64,000 bases of DNA, taken from assembly GCA_037043015.1 (NCBI GenBank), contig CM073330.1:13224512-13288511 (forward strand). Reading direction: 5' to 3'. Every line of letters starts with the position of its first letter. The stretch's first letter is position 1. The stretch is from Bryum argenteum. Its lineage: Eukaryota; Streptophyta; Bryopsida; Bryales; Bryaceae. The position numbers and the translations under genes are program-made. The notes beneath the pieces were generated by a model. That model saw nothing but the letters and a program-made list of their open reading frames with translations, made no database searches and was not told the origin of the DNA. Shown one piece after another: positions 61,074-64,000 of the stretch.

Positions 61074-64000
61074 ATGCAGAGCGCTTTGAGGAGACGGAGT
61101 GGGAGAGAGCCATGTGCGGGATGCAAGCTCATGAGCCTCGCAACTCTGTACACGCACGGGTTGAATCCGACGTTACGAAGAACTAAATCAGTCGCCTCAT
61201 TACCTGTTCAAAAGTCTCAGAGTTCTGAAAGAAGAACATCGATCATGGCCTTTGGAGTCACTTTGCCGCGCTTCACTACTGGTTTAGAGCCTGCAGCACA
61301 GCGCGGATCTGCAATCCGAGGAAGCTTCTCGACCAAATTTGAGAAGGTCAAACTGGTCGCGGATAGAAAGCGATCATTACAAGAACATATCAACTGGAAG
61401 GATACATTATTAGAGGAAGACAGTAGAGCCGGATTGATATTTTCGTACAGAGATTCAAATACTGCGAAATTAGACGTTGTTTCTTCGGGATCTTCTGATT
61501 GTAGTCTCGTTGGTGGAAGCGAGAGAGCATTCTTAATAGACCGTAGTTTAGGAATTAAAACAAGCAGCGAGCATGAAGCGCGTGTTGCAGCAAAAGCTGC
61601 TGATATGGACATAGAGAGTGAACTTTCACCAGTCGAGGGTGATATTTGGGATCGAGTGTGTAAGCTAAGGCAAGCGATTTCAGATTATTCCTATCGATAT
61701 CACACGTTGGATAATCCTGTAGTAAGGTAACATTTTACTGCATTTTGAGTTGTCATTATTCTTATCGAACGTTTGTAAGAGCCTCTTCTATATAGTCTTT
61801 TAATGTTGTCATATGTTGCAGCGACTCAGCTTATGATGCTCTGATTCGGGAGCTGAAGGACTTGGAATCTAAACTACCTGCAGATGCTTCGAAGGAGTCG
61901 GTGACTGCCAAAGTACGTGTGATCAATGGAAACCTTATTAGTACCTTTCTGAAGGATCTAGTATATGTATCTGGTTGTAAGTGGTTATGCGATATCATTA
62001 ATGTGTTTTTTGCTTTCGTCTCCTAGGTTGGAGCTCCTCCAGCTGTAGACATTGCCAAAGTTCGGCATGCCGTACCTATGCTCAGCCTTGCTGCTGTTTA
62101 CAAGGGTAATTTCTGTTCACAAGGTTATATGTTCATATATGTCATCAATCTGAAATCACCTACTTTACTGGTTGGCTGGCCCTCTGAGATATGGCCTTCT
62201 TTATTGAAGTGATATGGGCTTGCTTTCGCAGCAACATCCAGATATTCTTGCCCAATACATGTGAAGTAAGATAAGAGGCAGATGTGACGTGCTATGTATA
62301 TACTGACTTGCTACGTCTGTACTCACAGAAGAGGAGTTGAGAGCATGGCATGAGCGTTTGCAGCAACGACTGAACAAACTATCAAACGGAGAACAACCTT
62401 CTACCGGATCTTGGGTCGTAGAGCCTAAGGTGGATGGGCTGGCACTGACTTTGCTTTACGAGAAGGGTAGATTGGTCTGTGCTGCGACTCGCGGGGATGG
62501 CTCCGAAGGTGCAATTCGATTCACCTTACCTTTTCAATGATTGGGAGAAGCTGATTAGATGCAATGGATGATAGTACACTATGCTTGAGGCCGTTCTCGA
62601 CCTGAATGCTTGTGATCGCACTTGGTTACATGGCTCATTTTTCCGCATTCCACTTTTCGAAGTTCCATGGGAGCTGATTTGCTATCTGCTGATTGCGTGT
62701 AAATTAATCTCTTTGTTCATCTGTGGTAATAGGAGAGGATGTGACCTTCAATGCAAGAAATCTTTCAGGGATACCTGAAGTGATTCCTGAACTGCATGGG
62801 GAAACTAACTTGCATGCATCATCGATTGAGGTTCGGGGCGAAGTTTACATGACGCTGCATGATTTTCAAGAGTTTAATGAGAATAAGGTAATAATCAATC
62901 AGTCCACCACTGAAATCACACTTTATTCATATGGTAGTGTACCAATGTTAATTGCTTTGAATTCTGGGTACAGATGAAGGCAGGAGAGAAGCCTTTTGCA
63001 AACCCTCGGAATGCAGCAGCTGGTTCGATTAGAATACAGAAGAACCGAGATGTTGAGGATCGCCGACTTAGCTTCATGGCGTATGCTATTGTTTCATCGG
63101 AAGATACTGGTGCTTTAGGTGAATTTCAACTCCGGTCATCTTTTCAAGTTTCAACTTTCTTGTGGTTTTGTTGGGTATGATTGTAGCATCGTCTTAAAAA
63201 GTACCACACGATTGAGTTGACTCGGAACCGTGATTTATTCACTTATTTTGTCCGCTGAGGAATGCACTTTGAACTGATACATGTTCATATTGAATAGGAT
63301 CGGAAATATCACCACAATTAGTAAGGACACAATGGGATGCTCTGAATTTACTGAAGCAGATGGGATTTTCTGTCAATGACGACAACCGAAAATTTGATTC
63401 ATTTGAAGATGCTCTACAATATGCCACTAGGTATTGCTTCGTTCTCTTTTGATATTTTATATGCTGTACTGGAGGAGGTTTATCGATTGGGGTCGGATTT
63501 TACAATATATAGCACTTTTCAACACCATCGTTTGTCGTGAACACTACTGAAACTTTTACAGCTGTTCAATCAAGAGCGGCATAGATGTTTACTGTCCTTG
63601 TGAATTAGGGGCACAATATATGTTTCAGGCAGTGATGTATCGGCAGTAACTTATAGGAAGCTGTCTTTGACTACATCAAATATTGCGTATCTGCAGATGG
63701 CGTGAGTCAAGGCAGAGTCTCAAATATGAGTCAGATGGTGTGGTATTCAAGGCTGACGACTTGAAAGTTCAGGAAAAACTTGGTGCAGTTGGGTCTGACC
63801 CACGTTGGGCTGTTGCCTGGAAGGTGATGTAGTGCACTTGCTACCTCTTACTCAGAATAGCACTTTTTTCTGCTGTTGAACAAGCTGATGATGTTTGGTG
63901 ATCAAAGATTTGTAGTGATAGGATCAATGCAAGGACTAGAAAGGGGGAGATTCTTGAATTTGACTGGGCTTATAGTAACGTCGTCAGTTTGTGAGATCGT
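61074..64000 (+). CDS. NAD+-dependent DNA ligase (bacterial LigA type), 5' part, at least eight exons, runs off window
   Basis: Seals DNA nicks using NAD+ as adenylate donor. Exons: 61074-61726, 61822-61912, 62027-62105, 62329-62508, 62733-62887, 62974-63118, 63298-63430 and 63697-63823; all phases agree and sites are GT-AG. About 165 N-terminal residues, basic and Ser/Thr-rich at first ([20 protein letters not shown]), precede the ligase and look like an organelle transit peptide; an internal Met ([10 protein letters not shown]) is an alternative start. Domain Ia: [20 protein letters not shown] and [12 protein letters not shown]. Adenylation domain: [16 protein letters not shown] with the AMP-accepting Lys-308, [52 protein letters not shown] and [11 protein letters not shown], zinc-finger, HhH and BRCT domains would lie beyond the window. 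ATP-dependent ligases lack this layout. Confidence 0.93.

Follow-up and report, generated by a model that had tools for sequence, protein, structure and literature searches.

DNA ligases of the LigA family adenylate themselves from NAD+, transfer the AMP to the 5' phosphate at a nick and then seal the nick. LigA-like annotations are present in moss and algal databases. The plant ligases LIG1 and LIG6 are ATP-dependent and their domain architecture differs from that of LigA. According to a passage in a 2019 review of plant DNA repair, eubacteria are the only organisms in which NAD+-dependent ligases have been identified (PMC6728418). Nuclear NAD+-dependent ligases are already on record in other eukaryotes, and the plant gene described here adds to that kind. 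In extracts of the Paulinella study, nuclear LigA genes (K01972) are labelled eukaryotic in origin, and among the copies one carries a predicted mitochondrial and one a chromatophore targeting peptide (PMC9450145). As in the plant, the NAD-dependent ligase of Paulinella is nuclear-encoded; the difference is that Paulinella is a rhizarian amoeba with several LigA copies. The LigA tree that Yutin and Koonin published in 2009 has rows for Ostreococcus lucimarinus and Dictyostelium (PMC2806865), which are attributed to eukaryotes like the plant ligase and of which one is a green alga, but neither is a land plant. The plastomes of Ulva contain a LigA-like orf3 (excerpts of PMC4388391 and PMC10151680), the nearest matches of which come from Rickettsia at 37-38% and which is regarded as foreign DNA (PMC4388391). 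Ulva orf3 is LigA-like and belongs to the green lineage, as does the ligase described here, but it is encoded by the plastid genome whereas the plant ligase gene is nuclear. The first-pass annotation of the locus implied that a eukaryotic LigA would be strange, which was overstated given the nuclear LigA recorded elsewhere, as read in parts of two reports (PMC2806865, PMC9450145), and given a plant that is probably no flowering plant. Among the matches listed from the open-access literature, with few subscription papers covered, no land-plant LigA is described, and the word ligase does not occur in PMC7076466.

The candidate organelle DNA ligases of plants named in the relevant sections of two papers are LIG1 and LIG6 (PMC4166229, PMC6963530), a candidacy they share with the LigA found here. 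The part of a 2014 review of organelle replication that deals with ligases describes the plant plastid ligase as unclear, and its table passage gives LIG1, predicted to be plastidic, as the sole ligase of Physcomitrella (PMC4166229). DNA ligases 1 and 4 were among the induced genes in the relevant extract of a study of DNA damage in a moss (PMC4990234).

The window analysed is a stretch of 64,000 nucleotides (G000:C10:13224512-13288511) from a Bryum argenteum genome assembly of 258.8 Mb in 25 contigs. The ligase gene starts at 61074 and runs beyond the window edge to 66874 in continued numbering, its 3' half having been read from the same contig in a 10-kb stretch starting at 60001. Its 16 exons are arranged as follows, all on the plus strand.

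Exon 1, 61074..61726, plus strand: ATG start codon and N-terminal extension (about residues 1-190), followed by the beginning of domain Ia
Exon 2, 61822..61912, plus strand: domain Ia, with GT-AG junctions, aligned to 2owo
Exon 3, 62027..62105, plus strand: end of domain Ia and start of the adenylation domain
Exon 4, 62329..62508, plus strand: adenylation domain, KVDG motif with the catalytic Lys308
Exon 5, 62733..62887, plus strand: adenylation domain (E371)
Exon 6, 62974..63118, plus strand: adenylation domain, NPRNAAAGS motif (R398, R406)
Exon 7, 63298..63430, plus strand: adenylation domain
Exon 8, 63697..63823, plus strand: adenylation domain with R484, D492, K497 and K521; last exon within the window
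Intron 8, first part, 63824..64000, plus strand: 340 bases overall, extending to 64163
Exons 9-12, 64164-64253, 64448-64500, 64784-64856 and 64956-65111 (continued numbering), plus strand
Exons 13-16, 65357-65533, 65894-66041, 66211-66581 and 66683-66874 (continued numbering), plus strand
Content of exons 9-16, 64164-66874, plus strand: OB fold, zinc cysteines C615/C618/C633/C638, HhH, BRCT and TAA stop

The eight phase-consistent exons that had been claimed for the window are indeed found at 61074-63823, and the eight further exons at 64164-66874, inspected for loss or breakage, are intact through the TAA stop codon. GT-AG borders occur in 15 of the 15 introns, which are 86-360 bases long, and G is the last exon base at 13 of the 15 donors. 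If retained, 13 of the 15 introns would introduce in-frame stops; the two exceptions, introns 5 and 15, would each shift the frame. The spliced coding sequence of 2823 nt encodes 940 residues, has no internal stops and ends with TAA, and an in-frame stop at 61047 lies 5' of the first ATG (61074). A 3'-truncated relic is ruled out by the intact 3' half on the same contig. The nuclear genome contains a complete, intron-containing gene for a bacterial-type LigA.

The assignment to LigA is not due to chance, because the protein scores 678.6 bits against the NCBIfam LigA equivalog PRK07956 (cut-off 369) and 642.1 bits against TIGR00575 (cut-off 444.45), and its top match among solved structures is 2owo (E 4.2e-128), which we take to be E. 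coli LigA. Identity to 2owo is 41% across a 592-residue core. Two other LigA models and LigB also match, each below its own cut-off. Domain Ia (Pfam Nlig-Ia, residues 194-241) reaches 25.8 bits, slightly below the cut-off of 27, and is followed by the adenylation domain (PF01653, residues 257-524; 255.1 bits, cut-off 27), the OB fold (PF03120, residues 529-604; 98.3 bits, cut-off 32.9), the HhH domain (PF12826, residues 714-776; 59 bits, cut-off 27) and a C-terminal BRCT domain (PF00533, residues 841-906; 46.3 bits, cut-off 21.3). Residues of domain Ia, the adenylation domain and the OB fold were mapped onto E. coli numbering. The five NMN-site residues of domain Ia, Y209, H210, D219, Y222 and D223, are all identical to their E. 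coli counterparts (Y22, H23, D32, Y35 and D36), as are 11 of 11 listed residues of the adenylation domain, including K308, which corresponds to the catalytic lysine 115, and three of three listed OB-fold positions. C615, C618, C633 and C638 align with the zinc cysteines C408, C411, C426 and C432 of E. coli; a Pfam search at 1e-3 returned no zinc-finger family for the protein. Equivalog-level scores and domain order bear out the first-pass identification of a bacterial-type LigA, its statement that the motifs of domain Ia and the adenylation domain are complete holds for 16 of 16 listed residues, and extension along the contig revealed the OB, zinc-finger, HhH and BRCT domains, all four of them downstream.

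The plant ligase shares with bacterial LigA (2owo; PRK07956 / TIGR00575) the domain order, the listed catalytic residues and the zinc cysteines. Unlike bacterial LigA, it has an N-terminal extension of ~190 residues, 15 introns, an insert of 36 residues before the BRCT domain (near 793) and a three-residue gap; nine residues are inserted near 431, and there are three shorter insertions. The gap concerns the segment between the zinc finger and HhH, which has 13 residues in the plant ligase, as compared with the full length of 16 in 176 of 178 bacterial or viral proteins and 14 in the other two; L021 (345 residues) was too short and was excluded from this comparison and from the 179-row tree described below. 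A splice artefact is ruled out, as the gap lies within exon 13. To judge from the alignment, the loss of these three residues could weaken the enzyme.

The contig carrying the ligase gene measures 16.8 Mb, plant-type genes adjoin the ligase, and the G+C content of ~0.43 at the gene is continuous with that of the upstream flank. Four exon-level matches to the adenylation family occur in the genome, all within this gene, which is the only LigA locus found in the 25 contigs. ATP-dependent ligases match in at least two places, on contigs C5 and C8; the C8 match spans three stops, which are perhaps introns. The neighbouring open frames include a serine acetyltransferase, a LEA_2 protein (a weak match, 26.2 bits vs 25.4), a kinase and SNF2 pieces, and for two frames between these neighbours and the ligase no family was matched. 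The serine acetyltransferase (34249-35436, minus strand) is a single frame of 395 residues with an N-terminal extension, apparently intronless there, and the SNF2-type helicase pieces near the ligase occupy two frames at 56577-57865 on the minus strand.

Several other features accompany the gene. Upstream of it, at 59562-59642, is a near-perfect inverted repeat with 36-nt arms that are 89% complementary and separated by a 9-nt spacer. Its minus strand forms a hairpin with an unbroken stem of 22 bp, and the fold of a 121-nt stretch has -45.9 kcal/mol, whereas shuffled sequences average -19.5 (z -8.2). Such a hairpin could give rise to a small RNA; a short inverted-repeat element is the other possibility. 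At 12008-13141 and 40839-42707, a PIF1-like helicase frame and, on the opposite strand, frames that by eye resemble Helitron Rep/helicase pieces are probably Helitron remains. Just downstream of the ligase, L004:7440-7500 begins like a tRNA by eye and was not called by ARAGORN; a tRNA-Ala (agc) was called at L004:9064-9136, about 2.2 kb beyond the ligase stop codon.

Genome-wide markers describe the assembly further. Two full-length genes of the PsaA/PsaB family lie on contig C12, and plastid sequence is therefore present in the assembly. Outside C12 there are five short PsaA/PsaB-like fragments, on contigs C1, C3, C6 and C7, two of them with stops, which are probably nuclear insertions of plastid DNA. 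For the dynein stalk family PF12777, 18 exon-level matches were counted in the genome, which makes a flowering plant improbable. To our knowledge, flowering plants are without dynein heavy chains; the plants that retain them are those with swimming sperm, among which cycads and Ginkgo have far larger genomes. RALF peptides, a land-plant family, have four matches in the genome, a count that makes a green alga less likely.

The extension of about 190 residues that precedes domain Ia has Met at positions 1, 20 and 58, which could be alternative starts, to go by their position; alternative starts are reported for plant LIG1 in the ligase section of PMC4166229. Residues 1-95 contain 17 K/R vs 4 D/E, a net charge of +13, and residues 96-193 have a net charge of -8. 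In a hydrophobic-moment test the best amphipathic stretch of the extension reached 0.43, compared with 0.67 in the body of the protein, and the hydrophobic moment therefore does not single out the extension. The organelle targeting proposed at first pass thus has in its favour the ~190-residue extension, with its +13 in the first 95 residues, and the unexceptional hydrophobic moment against it. Import of the ligase into organelles is suggested by the charge and length of the extension and by precedent.

We estimate a probability of about 0.6 that the gene encodes a working NAD+-dependent LigA which is imported into plastids, mitochondria or both and seals nicks in organelle DNA. The gene structure is intact, and the domain order, catalytic residues and genomic residence are as described; expression, activity, use of NAD+, import and role of the ligase are what we infer from them. 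According to this model, LigA would be made in the cytosol and then imported into plastids, mitochondria or both. Lys308 would react with NAD+ with release of NMN, the AMP would be passed to the 5' phosphate of the nick and the nick would be closed, while the zinc finger, HhH and BRCT domains would clamp the DNA. The putative substrates are nicks that remain in organelle DNA after replication and repair. The ATP-dependent ligases encoded at two other places could serve the nucleus. Arguing against a plastid role of LigA is the plastid prediction for Physcomitrella LIG1 in the table passage of the 2014 review (PMC4166229), since LIG1 could cover the plastids.

Other explanations have to be weighed against this model. 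That the ligase is a bacterial contaminant or the product of an assembly join is so improbable that it was ruled out, as introns occur throughout the gene, the contig is a single one of 16.8 Mb, G+C continues from the upstream flank and the neighbours are of the plant type; on the evidence of introns, contig and neighbours, the gene is resident in the nuclear genome, as first supposed. The gene might instead only look alive, being silent or inactive with decay a recent matter, and the absence of three residues at the zinc finger-HhH junction that are otherwise conserved would fit such a course. We consider it quite unlikely in view of the 940 open codons, 16 exons and 15 of 15 canonical introns, and of the listed catalytic residues, all of which are kept despite a very long branch. 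An open frame and catalytic residues kept on a long branch are more simply read as long constraint than as decay. A further explanation, unlikely as well if somewhat less so, is a nuclear or cytosolic function of the ligase, perhaps in a separate repair pathway, with an extension that is not an import signal. Arg-rich, basic N-termini can be nuclear signals too, and the extension has an unremarkable hydrophobic moment. However, ATP-dependent ligases match at two other places (C5, C8), the extension is basic early and acidic later, as a presequence might be, and the Paulinella precedent is organellar in the text available (PMC9450145).

The origin of the ligase is a separate matter, on which scores and trees bear. 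Phylum scans, in which phylum labels follow the named centre genome of each scan, were scored against the plant core protein and covered four phyla. Matches were found in 296 of 350 genomes of Chloroflexota (best 486.1 bits at 46% identity, the top 30 all at least 448.9), 324 of 339 genomes of the cyanobacterial phylum (best 469.1 bits, next 443.8), 387 of 398 of Pseudomonadota (best 422.1 bits) and, under a strict limit of 1e-120, 11 of 148 of Bacteroidota/Rhodothermota, the phylum of locus L023 (best 458.8 bits). Only the top-scoring loci of each scan were taken, 30 in each of three phyla and eight in the fourth, and the sampling therefore leans toward plant-like sequences; in one comparison search the best 80 of 589 confirmed matches were kept. 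A single-protein scan of viral contigs yielded no relative of the ligase, and an alignment scan of viral contigs yielded nine related loci. A FastTree of 179 rows, eight of the nine viral loci included, did not resolve the plant row, which stood next to long viral rows. Mixture-model trees were calculated from hand-chosen rows (47 of 178 bacterial and viral ones for a 48-row tree, 38 of 186 for a 39-row tree) with the viral rows left out. The plant row grouped with 12 of 14 Chloroflexota and two Bacteroidota/Rhodothermota rows in the former and with 11 of 13 Chloroflexota and five Bacteroidota/Rhodothermota rows in the latter, with a support of 100/99 in both; two Chloroflexota rows fell outside this set in each tree. 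The AU test does not reject the Chloroflexota plus Bacteroidota/Rhodothermota core minus the plant row as a clade (p 0.332, 48 rows), so that nesting of the plant row inside the core is not established. Holding the plant row with Pseudomonadota gave p 0.048 (48 rows).

Alternatively, endosymbiotic gene transfer might have brought the ligase gene from the cyanobacterium that gave rise to the plastid, with the same function and a sequence too diverged for the trees to place correctly. With the plant row held with cyanobacteria, the AU test does not reject this on 48 rows (p 0.145), one genome of the cyanobacterial phylum reaches 469.1 bits, near the best of Chloroflexota, and the plant terminal branch of about 2 changes per site in both mixture-model trees makes long-branch error a live risk and the placement unsure. 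Nevertheless, a plastid origin is disfavoured and seems to us doubtful: both mixture-model trees give the Chloroflexota plus Bacteroidota/Rhodothermota grouping at 100/99, the same AU test yields p 0.030 on 39 rows, Chloroflexota score best at 486.1 with the top 30 at least 448.9, compared with 469.1 followed by 443.8 for cyanobacteria, and in the trees the 469.1-bit protein falls within the rest of the cyanobacteria. The first-pass annotation had left open an endosymbiotic or a horizontal origin and had proposed a tree with cyanobacterial and other bacterial LigA. The two mixture-model trees, with the plant row beside Chloroflexota and Bacteroidota/Rhodothermota (100/99), favour the horizontal alternative, which the AU values of 0.145 and 0.030 do not settle. 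An old, non-cyanobacterial gain of the ligase gene is probable on these sequence comparisons.

The significance of the gene is tempered by the nuclear LigA genes reported before from other eukaryotes. Yet a nuclear LigA gene that is intact in a seed-free plant contradicts the eubacteria-only statement in the review passage (PMC6728418), and it is a concrete candidate for the plastid ligase that the 2014 review, in the part concerned, calls unclear (PMC4166229). As LigA and LIG1 differ in cofactor, the finding would link ligation in organelles with the NAD+ pool. Tentatively, organelle ligation in seed-free plants may be carried out by a LigA from a donor near Chloroflexota/Rhodothermota, which seed plants would have lost in favour of ATP-dependent ligases. 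If so, the missing plastid ligase of seed-free lineages would be a horizontally acquired LigA of non-cyanobacterial origin.
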